DNA of 64,000 bases from Blastocatellia bacterium (GTDB taxonomy: Bacteria; Acidobacteriota; Blastocatellia; Pyrinomonadales; Pyrinomonadaceae), in NCBI GenBank assembly GCA_013697915.1, contig JACCVY010000050.1, forward strand, positions 1 to 64,000, given 5' to 3'. Each line of letters begins with the position of its first letter. The first letter of the stretch is position 1. The notes beneath the pieces were generated by a model. The model made no database searches. It was not told where the DNA came from and saw only the letters and a program-made list of their open reading frames with translations. Positions 37,537 through 64,000 of this stretch are shown here, piece by piece. Position numbers and translations under genes: made by a program.

Positions 37537-38394
37537 TTATTCTTCAGCAACTGCCTTCCTACCGCTAACAATCAAAACCTGCGAAGGAAAAATCATGCTG
37601 CCGCTTTTGAAATAAACTGCTGCGGCTTTGAGGACCGCATCTCGAACAGCGCTGACTTCATCCGGCGCCAGTCTGGCCAGTTTCGTTCTAAACGCGTCTG
37701 ACATTTCTGTGCGGAGTTTCCAAAATTGAGAAACATCGATCGGCGCTTCGGTGTCAAATTTCAGCGTGTGTTCTTTCACCGTTACAGCGCCCGCTTCCTC
37801 GATCAGCTTCGCGAGTTTCCCGGGTCGCGCAAAACGAAAAGCGGCAAGCGCATCCTCATCTTCCGGTTCAGCCGTTACAAATTGATCGAGAATTTCTGTG
37901 ATCACGTTGAAGAATGGATTGAGTTCCCGGTCGGCCCACACCAGAAGCGCAAGGCGGCCGCCGGGCTTCACGACCCGCAAGATTTCTCGCAGCGCGCCAG
38001 ACACGTCCGCAAAAAACATGGCTGAGAGCCGGCCCACAACGACGTCAAAAGAATCGTTCGCAAATGGAAGTTTTTCAGCTGCGGACTGATGAAACTCGAT
38101 GTTGGTTAAGCCGCGGCGCTCAGCTTCTTCTCGTGCGGCTTTAACCATGCCGGCGGTTGGATCAGTAAAGGTCACTTTTCCGGAAGGGCCAACAGCACGA
38201 GCGATAGTTAACGACGGCTCGCCTGCACCGCCGCCAATATCAAGCACCGATTGGCCTGCGACAATTTGCGCTTCTTCGATCAGCGCGCGCGTCAACGGCG
38301 CGTACATCTTTTCGATCAGCGACTGATGCTTGTTCCAATACTGCGAAGACGTTTCCCACGCCGCAAGCACCTCGGCTGCGTTTTCACTCACCAT
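37537..38394 (-). CDS. Class I SAM-dependent methyltransferase (UbiE/MenG-like)
   Basis: This 285-residue methyltransferase has SAM motif I as VLDIGGGAGEPSLTIA, the ribose-binding acidic residue in VTFTDPTAGMVKAA, LPFANDSFDVVVGRLSAMFF and LREILRVVKPGGRLALLVW. The acceptor is unknown. The ATG at 38394 starts at MVSENAAEV; the long frame to 38718 only arises from reading the rhodanese gene in another frame. It begins 14 bases after the stop of the Sec-rhodanese with an AAGAGG-like ribosome site, so the two form an operon. A link to sulfur or selenium methylation is possible but only an inference from position. Confidence 0.88.
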   Translation of the reverse strand: MVSENAAEVLAAWETSSQYWNKHQSLIEKMYAPLTRALIEEAQIVAGQSVLDIGGGAGEPSLTIARAVGPSGKVTFTDPTAGMVKAAREEAERRGLTNIEFHQSAAEKLPFANDSFDVVVGRLSAMFFADVSGALREILRVVKPGGRLALLVWADRELNPFFNVITEILDQFVTAEPEDEDALAAFRFARPGKLAKLIEEAGAVTVKEHTLKFDTEAPIDVSQFWKLRTEMSDAFRTKLARLAPDEVSAVRDAVLKAAAVYFKSGSMIFPSQVLIVSGRKAVAEE

Positions 38395-38407: not shown

Positions 38408-38740
38408 TTATTTGGGTTCGACGGGAAGCCCGGACTTTTCCCAGGCTTCCATTCCGCCGAACAGCGGATGGACGTTCTTATAACCGTGAGCCGAGAGTTC
38501 CTGCGCCACCCGGGCGCTGGATGCTTCGTGCGGTCAAGTGCAGTAGGTGATCGCAGTGCGGTCGTGCGGAATTTCCGCCAGATGTTTTTCAACTTCGTCG
38601 GCGGGCACGCGCAACGCGCTGGGCAACTTGGTTTTGGCTTCACCCCAGGCCGTAGGATTCCGCGTGTCGATAAAAGTGAATTGCTCGCCGCGCTCCATTC
38701 GTTCTTTGATTTCATCAACCGTGACGCGTGTTGCTTCCAT
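38408..38740 (-). CDS. Rhodanese-domain selenoprotein with in-frame TGA (Sec69)
   Basis: Reading the TGA at 38536-38534 as Sec gives an unbroken 110-residue single-domain rhodanese ending in TAA at 38408. Landmarks are FIDTRNPTAWGEAKTKLPSALRVP near the N-terminus, the active loop ITYCT-U-PHEASSARVAQEL, and the C-terminal VHPLFGGMEAWEKSGLP, a standard rhodanese ending. The loop belongs to the YCxCPxE(A/T)SA subgroup, where U replaces the second Cys. The cysteine two residues before U could form a selenylsulfide. Without Sec the protein would stop at residue 68 and lose half the domain. It heads an operon with a methyltransferase. It probably transfers sulfur or selenium or reduces a thiol partner in the cytoplasm. 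Confidence 0.88.
38500..38520 (-). promoter_or_regulatory. Candidate bacterial SECIS hairpin of the rhodanese gene
   Basis: On the minus strand CCA-GCGCC-CGGGT-GGCGC-AGG forms a 5-bp GC stem extended by two G-C pairs beyond an A-A mismatch. The 5-base loop starts 21 bases after the TGA and has G as its second base. This is the same geometry as the peroxiredoxin hairpin. Confidence 0.65.
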
Positions 38741-38771: not shown

Positions 38772-39470
38772 TTAAGCCAAATCAAATAACAGTACTTCTG
38801 ACGGCTGGCCGGCAACGATACTCAATTGGTCTTCCTGACTAATCGCAGCGCCGTCGCCGTGTTTGAGCTCAGTGCCGTTAAGCTCGACCGCGCCGGCGGC
38901 CACTTGCAGCCAGGCGTGCCGGCCCGTTGTTAATTGATGATTAACTGACCTGCCCGCATCAAGCACGCTCGCGTAGATTTTCGCGTCCTGATGAATGCGG
39001 ACAGCGCCATCATCCCCCTCCGGAGAAACGATTAGCCGCAATCTGTTTCGCTTCTCTTCATCCGCAAACTTCTTTTCTTCGTATTCAGGCGGCTGCCCTT
39101 CTCGCTCCGGCAGAATCCAAATTTGCAGCAGATGGACCGGCTCGTCTTTTAAGGGATTAGACTCGCTGTGCCTCACACCGGTGCCGGCGCTCATCCGTTG
39201 CGCGTCACCGCGCCGGATGATCGAGCCGCTGCCCATGCTGTCGCGATGCTCGAGCGCGCCCGCGATGATATAGGTGACGATTTCCATGTCGCGGTGACCG
39301 TGCGTGGGGAAACCACGCCCGGGCGCCACCACGTCTTCATTGATAACGCGCAGCGAGCGAAACGCCATGTGCGACGGATCGTAGTAATCACCAAAGGAAA
39401 ACGTGTGATAGGTGTTAAGCCAGCCAAAATCGAAGTGGCCGCGATCTTCAGCTTTGCGAATTTCGATCAT
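38772..39470 (-). CDS. Pirin-family protein (quercetinase-like bicupin)
   Basis: This 232-residue double cupin of the pirin/YhhW group has the iron site formed by HGHRDMEIVTY (two His) and HSESN (His and Glu) in the first cupin. Further family motifs are FSFGDYYDP, LRVINEDVVAPGRGFP and GVRHSESNP. Bacterial relatives can cleave quercetin or act as redox-sensitive iron proteins. The ATG at 39470 (MIEIRKAEDRGHFDFGW) is the family start. It lies upstream of the Sec-rhodanese on the same strand with 31 bp between, so all three genes may be co-transcribed. Confidence 0.92.
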   Translation of the reverse strand: MIEIRKAEDRGHFDFGWLNTYHTFSFGDYYDPSHMAFRSLRVINEDVVAPGRGFPTHGHRDMEIVTYIIAGALEHRDSMGSGSIIRRGDAQRMSAGTGVRHSESNPLKDEPVHLLQIWILPEREGQPPEYEEKKFADEEKRNRLRLIVSPEGDDGAVRIHQDAKIYASVLDAGRSVNHQLTTGRHAWLQVAAGAVELNGTELKHGDGAAISQEDQLSIVAGQPSEVLLFDLA

Positions 39471-39527: not shown

Positions 39528-40016
39528 CTAAAGCTTGGACTCTAAACTGCTTGAGCCTTGAACAGCTTGAATGAAAATCTCCGCTAACTCATTCAAACCC
39601 CGCGCATCTTCGTCGTCAAACCGCGCGATCGATGGACTGTCAAGATCAAGCACGCCGATTAATCGCTGGTCCTTAATCAACGGCACCACGATTTCGGAAT
39701 TCGAAGCGCTGTCACAGGCGATGTGTCCGGGAAACTCGTTAACATTTTCGACGACGACAGTTTGTCTAAGCTGGGCGGCAGTGCCACACACGCCTTTCCC
39801 CATCCCGATACGCACACATGCCGGATTTCCCTGAAACGGGCCCAATACCAGTTCGCCTTCTTTGAACAAATAGAACCCAACCCAATTGACATCCGGCAAC
39901 GAATGATAAAGCAGCGCGGCGCAGTTTGCCGCGTTAGCGATGAAGTCGTGTTCGCCCTGAAGCAAACTATGAAGCTGTGCCGCGAGGCTCGCATACAGGT
40001 CTGTCTTGGAATCCAT
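39528..40016 (-). CDS. Free methionine-(R)-sulfoxide reductase (GAF domain)
   Basis: This is a 162-residue GAF-domain enzyme that reduces free methionine-R-sulfoxide using cysteine thiols. The three family cysteines are seen in PACVRIGMGKGVCGTAA and HIACDSASNSEIVVPL, and the substrate-pocket residues in NWVGFYLF and GVLDLDSPSIARFDDED are present. The start MDSKTDLYASLAAQL at 40016 matches family length; codons back to 40052 are optional. Its place next to pirin and the Sec-rhodanese gives a local oxidative-stress flavour, though a shared regulator is not visible. The 261 bp upstream, to the YdeP-like gene, contain no gene. Confidence 0.9.
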   Translation of the reverse strand: MDSKTDLYASLAAQLHSLLQGEHDFIANAANCAALLYHSLPDVNWVGFYLFKEGELVLGPFQGNPACVRIGMGKGVCGTAAQLRQTVVVENVNEFPGHIACDSASNSEIVVPLIKDQRLIGVLDLDSPSIARFDDEDARGLNELAEIFIQAVQGSSSLESKL

Positions 40017-40313
40017 TTTTACTTTGGCAACTTGAAACGTCATTTGAGTCAAGCAAGCTGTTCTTCAGCTGCAGAGCAGCGAAATGTTTATAGCCGTCCA
40101 GTTCTCAAAATCATCTTAGCTCCGCAGGAGCGAAAACTGCCGCCCATAAATGGGTTAAGGAATAAATTATCGATCCTCACGCTATAAAATTTCATATCTA
40201 CGGCACGAGAGCACAAGCGAGACACATTTTGCAGGTTGGGCAACGGTCGACTGAAACTCTTACGCTCCGGTGCGAATTCTTTGCGCCCCTTCGCGTCTAA
40301 TGTGACTCGCGAT

Positions 40314-42638
40314 TCACACTGGCGCACCCTCAGCCGACGGCCGAATGCTAATCACGACCGACTTCGAAACCGGCGTATTGCTTTTCTCAGCCACGCTGCG
40401 CACCGGCACCAGCACATTTGTCTCAGGAAAATAGGTTGCCGCGCAACGTCGCGGAATGCTATAGGGCACGACCACAAAGTTGCGCGCGATGCGTTCTTCG
40501 CCTTCAAAGTGGCTGACCAGATCGACCATCTGCCCTTGCGTCAGACGCAATAACGCGATGTCGTCCTGATTCAGGAAAACTACGCGCCTGCCGTTACGAA
40601 TGCCGCGATAGCGATCGTCCAAGCTGTAAATGGAGGTGTTGAATTGATCGTGACTGCGAATCGTCATCATCAAAAGCTGGTTGGGTTGCAAATTGTGTTC
40701 AGGCAAATCATGAACAGTGAAACGCGCCCGGCCAGTTGGAGTTTTGAACACCCGCTCACTAACCGGGCTGGGCAGATGAAAACCGCCGGGATGCCGCACA
40801 CGATTGTTGTAATCCTCGAATCCAGGCAACACTCGTTCAATACGATCGCGAATGCGATCGTATTCGGCGATCATCTCTTGCCAATTGATACGGGAACGTT
40901 GACCTAAAGTAGCGGTTGCCAAACGCGCAACAATGGCCGGCTCGCTCAGCAACTCCTCGGAAGCAGGTGGCAGAAAACCACGCGAAGCCTGCACCACTGC
41001 CATCGAATTTTCCGTGGTCACAAATTGAGCACCACCGGCCTGCATATCAATCTCAGTCCGTCCCAGGCACGGCAGGATCAAAGCCTGCTCACCGGCAATC
41101 AAATGCGCGCGGTTGAGTTTCGTTGAAACATGCGCAGTCAAACGGCAACTGCGCAGGGCATCGGCGGTGTACTCGGTATCCGGCGTTGCCGATAGAAAAT
41201 TTCCGCCCAGCGCAAAGAAAACCCTGGCCTGTCGCGCATGCATGGCTTGAATCGCACGAACGGTGTCATGGCCATGCCCGCGCGGGGGCTCGAAATCAAA
41301 CTCAGCTCCCAGCTTGTCGAGGAAAGCATCCGTAGGTCGTTCCCAAATTCCCATCGTGCGATCGCCTTGCACGTTGCTGTGCCCTCTTACCGGGCAAAGT
41401 CCCGCTCCCGGTTTTCCAATTTGCCCGCGCAACAGCATTAAGTTAACTATCTCCTGAATGTTGGCCACCGCGTTCTTGTGCTGCGTCAGGCCCATGGCCC
41501 AACAGAAAATTGTTCGTTCTGATTCAATGAAGATCTTCGCCGCATCCTCGATATGCGCTTTTGAAACTCCGCTTTGCTCGAGCAGGTCGCCCCAGTGCGC
41601 AGTCTTAATCGAGTCGGCAAACTCTGCAAACCCATCCGTGTAATTCGCAATGAAGGCGTGGTCCAACACCGCGCCGGGATTACGCTCTTCCGCGGCCAGC
41701 ACTTCCTTCATGATGCCTTTGAGCAGGGCCACGTCGCCGTTGATGCGCACCTGAAGAAACAGATCGGCGAGCGCGGTGCCACCACCAAACCAATGCAGCA
41801 CATCCTGCGGGTGCTTAAAGTGCGTCATGCCAACTTCCGGAAGCGGGTTAATGTGGACCAACCGGGCGCCATTCTGTTTGGCTTTCTGCAGCGCGGTCAG
41901 CATGCGCGGATGATTCGTGCCGGGATTTTGGCCGATGACGAAGATCGCCTGCGCAAGATTGAAATCTTCCAGCGTTACCGTTCCTTTGCCGACGCCAATC
42001 GTTTCACCCAACGCCGATCCGCTCGACTCATGACACATGTTCGAGCAGTCTGGCAGATTGTTGGTGCCAAACTGCCTGACGAATAGTTGGTACAAAAACG
42101 CAGCTTCGTTGCTGGTGCGCCCCGACGTATAGAAAATCGCTTCGTCCGGGCTGTTCAATGAATTCAGCTCGCCGGCAAGCAAAGCGAAAGCTTTGTCCCA
42201 ACTTATTTTTTCGTAATGAGTAGCGCCCCTTTGCAGAACCATAGGACTGGTAATTCGGCCTTGCTTGCCCAGCCAGTGGTCAGTCTGATCAGCCAAATCG
42301 GCAACGCTCCAGCGCGCAAAGAATTCCGGCGTCACGCGTTTAGTCGTCGCTTCATCGGCAACATGCTTGGCCCCGTTTTCGCAAAACTCCGCGTGCGAAC
42401 GCTCGCCGTCCGGTTCGGGCCAGGCGCAGCCGGGACAATCAAACCCTGTTTTTTGATTTAGCTTCAGCAGCGTGCGCACACCCCGCGCGATGCCCATTTC
42501 GTTCCAGGTGGTTTTTGCTGTAGCGAGAATTGAGGGAATGCCGCCGGCTACTTTGCTCGGCTTTTCAATCTGCACGAGGGAGGGCTCTTCAGGCGATTGA
42601 GCGCGACGATCAGTCGATGTGGGCTTCCCATCTGACAT
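40314..42638 (-). CDS. YdeP/FdhF-type molybdopterin oxidoreductase
   Basis: This 774-residue catalytic subunit-like molybdoprotein belongs to the YdeP branch of formate-dehydrogenase-like enzymes, which bind bis-MGD. It starts with KTGFDCPGCAWPEPDGERSHAEFCENGAKHVADE, typical of YdeP, and continues with the molybdopterin domain (FYTSGRTSNEAAFLYQLFVRQFGTNNLPDCSNMCHESSG, IGVGKGTVTLEDF, VIGQNPGTNHPRML). The C-terminal molybdopterin-binding domain begins LLMMTIRSHDQFNTSIYSLDDRYRG. The metal ligand region shows NMCHESSG, so no Sec is used. Relatives are linked to acid resistance, and the substrate is unproven. A MOSC-domain gene lies upstream on the same strand. Confidence 0.92.
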   Translation of the reverse strand: MSDGKPTSTDRRAQSPEEPSLVQIEKPSKVAGGIPSILATAKTTWNEMGIARGVRTLLKLNQKTGFDCPGCAWPEPDGERSHAEFCENGAKHVADEATTKRVTPEFFARWSVADLADQTDHWLGKQGRITSPMVLQRGATHYEKISWDKAFALLAGELNSLNSPDEAIFYTSGRTSNEAAFLYQLFVRQFGTNNLPDCSNMCHESSGSALGETIGVGKGTVTLEDFNLAQAIFVIGQNPGTNHPRMLTALQKAKQNGARLVHINPLPEVGMTHFKHPQDVLHWFGGGTALADLFLQVRINGDVALLKGIMKEVLAAEERNPGAVLDHAFIANYTDGFAEFADSIKTAHWGDLLEQSGVSKAHIEDAAKIFIESERTIFCWAMGLTQHKNAVANIQEIVNLMLLRGQIGKPGAGLCPVRGHSNVQGDRTMGIWERPTDAFLDKLGAEFDFEPPRGHGHDTVRAIQAMHARQARVFFALGGNFLSATPDTEYTADALRSCRLTAHVSTKLNRAHLIAGEQALILPCLGRTEIDMQAGGAQFVTTENSMAVVQASRGFLPPASEELLSEPAIVARLATATLGQRSRINWQEMIAEYDRIRDRIERVLPGFEDYNNRVRHPGGFHLPSPVSERVFKTPTGRARFTVHDLPEHNLQPNQLLMMTIRSHDQFNTSIYSLDDRYRGIRNGRRVVFLNQDDIALLRLTQGQMVDLVSHFEGEERIARNFVVVPYSIPRRCAATYFPETNVLVPVRSVAEKSNTPVSKSVVISIRPSAEGAPV

Positions 42639-63129: not shown

Positions 63130-64000
63130 TTACTTAAGAATGATTCGTTTGTCAGCGGCGCGGCGCGTTATTCGTTCCCGATCAAAATATTCGAGCAGCG
63201 GAATCGCGTATTTGCGCGAAACGCCAGCCAACTCCTTAAACTGTGACACGTCGATTAACCGCTCCGGCTCATGTTGCGAAGCGAAGTCCTGAAGCAATGT
63301 ACGCAATCGATTGATTGAGTTAACGTGCAAAAACATATCCGCCTGCGCCCGAACAAGAGTACCGTCATCAAGCAGCATTTGCAGAATTTTCCGCGCCTGG
63401 GGTCTTTGCGCCGGCATAACCCCGGCGCTTTCGAGAGCCTGGTCAAGAGTTGGTGGTTCAAGTCGCGCAGCCTGATAGATAGTCGCGATTTTTTCCCGCA
63501 GCGTCGTCTCGGCAGGGGAAAGATCGACCGTGTGTTCGCGGAGGCGAACCAAATCTTTTTCTGTAACCAGAGCGCCCTTACTTTCAAGCTGATTCATCAC
63601 GGCGCGAAATACTTCCGGCGCCGAGTGACTGAAGCAGCGCTCGCGTAAAAGTTCGCGCGCTAGTCCGCGCGATAAGGGGTCGCGTTGGTGATGAGACTTC
63701 ACTTCTGCAACTACCGCTTCGGCCAGTTTTTCAAAATTAGCCGTGCTGATGAATAACCCACTCGCATCAGTGATCCTCCCTTCCTGCTGGGCTTCGTTTG
63801 CAGCAGTGGACAAAACCGTATCGTTCAAACCCGTTCGGGCTATGAGTTGTTCAAGCTTCATCCCCTGGTCACCTGCCGCCAAAACAAAGGCTGCTAATTT
63901 TCTTGATCGTTCGGGTCGCATCAACTCACCCAGGCGCTCGTCAGTTTTTGCCAGTTCCCTGCCTCGATGTTTTGTGGCCAACGGATCGAGCACCAGGCCG
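63130..64000 (-). CDS. selB: Selenocysteine-specific translation elongation factor SelB, C-terminal part (N-terminus outside window)
   Basis: The frame is open to the window edge and lacks a start, so only the C-terminal 289 residues are seen. They form the winged-helix domains 2-4 of SelB that bind the SECIS hairpin: RHRGRELAKTDERL, RSRKLAAFVLAAGDQGMKLEQLIARTGL, LRERCFSHSAPEVFRAVMNQLESKGALVTEKDLVRLREHTV, and the terminal LIDVSQFKELAGVSRKYAIPLLEYFDRERITRRAADKRIILK, which is the most conserved part. The GTP-binding half is off the right edge. A hairpin ATGCCGTA/TACGGCAT overlaps the stop codon at 63130. Its presence shows that the organism can insert selenocysteine, which supports the two TGA-containing genes. 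Confidence 0.93.
   Translation of the reverse strand, partial: GLVLDPLATKHRGRELAKTDERLGELMRPERSRKLAAFVLAAGDQGMKLEQLIARTGLNDTVLSTAANEAQQEGRITDASGLFISTANFEKLAEAVVAEVKSHHQRDPLSRGLARELLRERCFSHSAPEVFRAVMNQLESKGALVTEKDLVRLREHTVDLSPAETTLREKIATIYQAARLEPPTLDQALESAGVMPAQRPQARKILQMLLDDGTLVRAQADMFLHVNSINRLRTLLQDFASQHEPERLIDVSQFKELAGVSRKYAIPLLEYFDRERITRRAADKRIILK

Follow-up and report, generated by a model that had tools for sequence, protein, structure and literature searches.

Within the 64,000-nt stretch of a Blastocatellia genome analysed here (in the following, the window), a short rhodanese frame is interrupted by an in-frame TGA. This raises the question of whether the codon is read as selenocysteine (Sec), and whether the predicted protein, together with the methyltransferase encoded next to it, stands for a sulfur or selenium chemistry not described before, as a first-pass annotation had suggested.

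Rhodanese gene and its predicted product

The first-pass annotation had located the TGA in the active-site loop of a short rhodanese and had described the frame as continuing beyond it, and both statements held. With the TGA read through, the frame encodes 110 aa (from MEATR to PVEPK) and ends at a TAA stop codon, while ordinary translation is halted at the TGA and yields a product of 68 aa. PF00581 matched with 50.7 bits at a gathering cut-off of 22.2, which places the protein in the Rhodanese domain family, and an AlphaFold2 model based on an alignment of 22 orthologues (mean pLDDT of 92.7) matched solved rhodanese folds in the PDB with E values down to 2.6e-08. The loop reads YCTUPHE, i.e., Cys67-Thr-Sec69-Pro. 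Cys67 is invariant among the 22 members of alignment A1 and aligns with the YC of 3tp9; residue 69 follows two positions later, in a short loop of the model that joins strand 62-66 to helix 70-84. The protein is probably located in the cytosol. The coordinates of all features are listed in Table 1.

Table 1. Features of the window discussed in the text
Feature	Position	Strand	Remarks
CxU rhodanese selenoprotein gene (predicted)	38408..38740	-	frame 38740-38408; PF00581; AlphaFold2 model
Cys67 codon	38540..38542	-	aligns with the active-site Cys of canonical rhodaneses
UGA codon, predicted Sec69	38534..38536	-	TGA or Cys codon at 24 orthologous loci
bSECIS-like hairpin core GCGCC-CGGGT-GGCGC	38503..38517	-	kept pairs, invariant loop G
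Class I SAM methyltransferase (UbiE/Methyltransf_11-like)	37537..38394	-	13 nt downstream of the rhodanese
Pirin family protein	38772..39470	-	PF02678 and PF17954; kept upstream in 6 loci
GAF domain protein	39528..40052	-	PF01590; kept in the same 6 loci as pirin
FdhF/YdeP family molybdopterin oxidoreductase	40314..42638	-	TIGR01701, 947.8 bits (cut-off 582); same 6 loci as pirin
selB, 3' part	63142..64000	-	TIGR00475, 356.8 bits, above cut-off; gene extends to 65040 on the same contig

Codon 69 in related genomes

A search of 115 related genomes revealed many rhodanese matches with exactly one internal TGA. The orthologue set comprised 24 loci in 23 Blastocatellia genomes, one of which carries two copies. 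At codon 69, 21 of the 24 loci harbor TGA, including genome G065 with a broken 5' part and genome G091 with two TGAs, and the remaining three harbor a Cys codon (TGT in G004 and G006, TGC in G014). In the wider tree set (45 relatives, paralogues included), 36 sequences revealed Sec and nine revealed Cys at this position, the latter being the three orthologues and six further paralogues; no sense codon other than Cys was detected in these 45 relatives, and conservation downstream of the codon is retained. The locus thus shows the pattern by which bacterial selenoproteins are recognized, an internal UGA opposite Cys in homologous proteins.

In the tree, the Sec form of the window genome (G000) has the Cys form of G004 as its sister, with 85% identity and a support of 98/89. 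A second Cys pair comprises G006 and G014, and the distant Cys paralogues make up a third group; overall, three changes between Sec and Cys are needed. Since the three Cys genomes keep an in-frame TGA in other rhodaneses, the change from Sec to Cys looks locus-specific. Judged by named records, the nearest homologues come from metagenome assemblies of Pyrinomonadaceae and other Acidobacteria; plasmid records contained only distant rhodaneses with less than 60% identity.

Codons 70-110 showed a dN/dS of about 0.14 over all pairs of Sec forms, indicating purifying selection past the UGA, and 0.06-0.18 in three close pairs (0.06 for G000 versus G001, 0.15 for G000 versus G009), all of these values being approximate because synonymous differences are high. 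As an alternative, the TGA could be a genuine stop codon, a sequencing mistake, or the lesion of a pseudogene, in favor of which one may cite the 68-aa product of a frame closing there. This reading is hardly credible in view of the same TGA at 21 orthologous loci in independent assemblies, the purifying selection behind it, the Cys alternatives, and the complete Sec apparatus described below. Chance or an error at these three bases is excluded, since independent genomes carry TGA at orthologous loci.

The codon for Cys67 is TGC in every Sec row of the alignment apart from G091. The orthologue in this genome (L078:7072-7401, minus strand) carries two in-frame TGAs in a loop reading YUTUQ, followed by an intact hairpin; both chalcogen residues of the loop could be Sec in this one genome, i.e., UxU. 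The orthologue in G065 (L079, G065:C61) contains an extra TAG in frame and diverges in its 5' portion, which points to either a damaged gene copy or a faulty assembly.

Hairpin downstream of the UGA

Bacterial SECIS elements (bSECIS) are defined as hairpins shortly past the UGA with a G within the first two loop positions. The hairpin reported by the first-pass annotation was recovered as described: it starts with base 17 beyond the TGA, spans 17-31 nt past the UGA, and has a G at position 2 of its loop CGGGT. A scan of the window against Rfam resulted in no match at gathering scores. The single-sequence fold of the stretch was unremarkable (z = -1.46), so support for the hairpin was taken from comparison. 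The core consensus was GCGCC-NG[GT]GT-GGCGC, each pair being retained in 23-24 of 24 Sec sequences, and the loop G at 38511, 23 nt past the UGA, is invariant in all 24. The covariation signal is thin, with a hairpin that hardly varies and one compensatory change in the core (C-G to U-A). Codons 75-79, which encode the hairpin, form the top five-codon window for synonymous conservation, with an identical-codon fraction of 0.88, compared with a mean of 0.43 in the background.

The corresponding stretch in the Cys forms reads AGCAGCAAAGTAGCC (G004), AGCGCCGGCGTGGCA (G006), and AGCGCTCGCGTGGCG (G014), and the hairpin was absent from the predicted folds of all three. This loss where Sec is replaced is the strongest single argument for a putative bSECIS role. 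Folding of some Sec forms favored alternative structures, so that the argument leans on conservation more than on energy.

Selenocysteine machinery of the genome

The assembly that contains the window consists of 271 contigs and is 97.4% complete. It encodes the full machinery, namely SelA, SelB, SelD, and tRNA-Sec, each scoring over its curated cut-off; tRNA-Sec, with anticodon UCA, reached 67.7 bits, and its gene and that of SelB share the contig with the window. The SelD gene (L100, G000:C265:5983-6912) contains one in-frame TGA itself, and its product is probably a selenoprotein as well. Taken together with the comparison above, the internal UGA of the window rhodanese is almost certainly decoded as selenocysteine, with a certainty near the most that sequence alone can give.

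Neighboring genes and the methyltransferase

Upstream of the rhodanese, genes for a MOSC protein, an FdhF/YdeP oxidoreductase, a GAF domain protein, and a pirin were identified, the pirin gene ending directly upstream, where it had been annotated before. The order FdhF/YdeP-GAF-pirin is common to six genomes of one genus; across the 24 loci, gene context is kept only among close relatives. The adjacent methyltransferase gene downstream is also present as annotated, at a spacing of 13 bases from the rhodanese stop to its ATG at 38394 rather than the 14 given earlier, and the two genes are likely co-transcribed.

The first-pass annotation had read this pairing as a sign of special sulfur or selenium chemistry. 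A dedicated system in which the methyltransferase methylates a sulfur or selenium intermediate of the rhodanese could be argued from the short spacing in the window, from the same gene order in G004, G006, G024, and G057, the latter two belonging to other genera, and from arsenite methyltransferases being among the nearest models of the methyltransferase. However, the two genes adjoin in only 5 of 24 loci, three with Sec (G000, G024, and G057) and two with Cys (G004 and G006), so that Sec rhodaneses without the methyltransferase are the rule. At the remaining 19 loci, the gene was not found next to the rhodanese, although some of these absences are uncertain where a locus lies near a contig end, as a few do. 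Moreover, its homologues occur unlinked to the rhodanese in other genomes, every named methyltransferase model scored far under its cut-off, and the protein contains no cysteine at all. A dedicated methylating system is therefore very improbable, and a Sec-specific chemistry of the pair finds no support. ArsM, an enzyme with conserved cysteines, was ruled out as the identity of the methyltransferase by the latter's lack of Cys and a score of 86.8 bits with NF008823 (cut-off 263), as was a role as conserved partner by the count of loci given above. The methyltransferase is an occasional operon neighbor outside the core function, and the earlier claim of novelty, which rested mainly on this operon partner, loses its basis with the partner's lack of conservation. 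In L062 (G024:C26:62434-63174) and L066 (G057:C8), two TGA-containing rhodaneses lie in tandem upstream of the methyltransferase.

Relation to known rhodaneses

As a kind, the CxU rhodanese selenoprotein is already described, contrary to the novelty assumed before. It is listed as form 2 in PMC9312934 and as form 3, NF041203, in PMC13188914, which credits it to Zhang and Gladyshev 2005 and lists UxxS, UxxG, and TsoB forms beside it; in both papers, CxU rhodaneses count among the predicted families whose function is unclear. The first-pass annotation had itself pointed to proposals from environmental sequences, and rhodanese-related selenoproteins were indeed predicted earlier from Sargasso Sea and GOS data (PMC1088965, PMC2398784). 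A dedicated description of a rhodanese selenoprotein in Acidobacteria was not found in the open-licence literature.

As in NF041203 (rhodanese_LYCAU), the window protein and its orthologues consist of one rhodanese domain, whose CxU/CxC loop takes the form CTU or, in G004, G006, and G014, CTC. The motif of the window protein is TYCTU in place of LYCAU. Of all models, NF041203 matched the window protein best, and each of the 22 A1 members matched it too, but the window protein reached 93.7 bits at a curated cut-off of 115, and only one of 73 relatives exceeded the cut-off (G036, row L050, from the opposite half of the tree). Because the best model thus stays below its cut-off for nearly all relatives, the window clade is, judged by these scores, a neighboring subfamily of the known kind and no formal member of NF041203.

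The protein shares with the UxxS/UxxG forms (forms 1, 2, and 4) and TsoB a Sec within the rhodanese-domain motif (PMC13188914). While the UxxS and UxxG motifs start with Sec, the window protein keeps Cys at the classical position and has Sec at +2, and TsoB is a far larger fusion with a model of 572 positions, on which the window protein scored 22.9 bits. It resembles the canonical single-domain sulfurtransferases GlpE and PspE in its fold and in the single Cys that follows the central strand, but its loop CTUPHEASS contains a second chalcogen residue, and the GlpE model gave 36.9 bits, below its cut-off of 102.

Putative mechanism

SelB bound to the hairpin would bring Sec-tRNA to codon 69, and Sec delivery there, giving the predicted loop Y-Cys67-Thr-Sec69-Pro, is strongly supported by the comparison. 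Cys67, at the classical nucleophile position of rhodaneses, would then accept a sulfane sulfur, and Sec69, where the loop helix begins, would attack the Cys67 persulfide, so that sulfide leaves and a Cys-Sec selenenylsulfide remains, which thioredoxin or glutathione may reduce. This division of work, with sulfur uptake by Cys67 and resolution of the persulfide by Sec69, appears most likely, though we infer the resolving chemistry of the CxU loop from its spacing alone. The protein would serve sulfur and redox homeostasis, either as a persulfide reductase assisted by selenium or as a carrier of sulfane sulfur.

The roles could also be reversed: Sec69 would then be the nucleophile that carries sulfur or selenium, and Cys67 the resolving residue, e.g., in a carrier that brings selenium to SelD. 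In general, Sec exceeds Cys in nucleophilicity. The motifs of the other rhodanese Sec families, UxxS and UxxG, moreover begin with Sec (PMC13188914). However, the classical nucleophile aligns with the invariant Cys67 and not with Sec69, and no constant neighbor from selenium metabolism was detected at the 24 loci, which makes the reversed assignment rather doubtful. Overall, a small Sec rhodanese in which Cys67 takes up sulfur, Sec69 resolves it, and the methyltransferase has no core part is the best explanation, and one that we hold to be reasonably probable.

CxU rhodaneses in Blastocatellia

The remaining interest lies in how widespread and varied CxU rhodaneses are within Blastocatellia, and in their natural Sec/Cys pairs. 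The selenoprotein, whose frame would end at 68 residues under ordinary translation, is common to many genera of this soil lineage, and with the sisters G000 and G004 it offers a direct test of what selenium contributes to a rhodanese. Tentatively, Blastocatellia may possess an expanded, lineage-specific set of CxU Sec rhodaneses (single-domain, lipoprotein-like, exchanger-fused, and tandem) that forms a selenium-dependent persulfide-reducing system outside NF041203, a possibility we regard as open to considerable doubt.

In a second rhodanese of the window genome (C19:21106-21384; L006:1471-1881, minus strand), the matching codon is likewise TGA (YCSUPSEHTS); the N-terminus is lipoprotein-like, and a separate hairpin follows this TGA. 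Besides, in L121 and L123 (G002:C180 and G012:C13), a Na+/H+ exchanger carries a fused CxU Sec rhodanese at its C-terminus (PF00999 and PF00581). Similar frames of 550-630 aa with one TGA occur in G001:C33, G007:C417, G015:C7, G003:C39, and G042:C572, the fusion itself having been read in L121 and L123 only.
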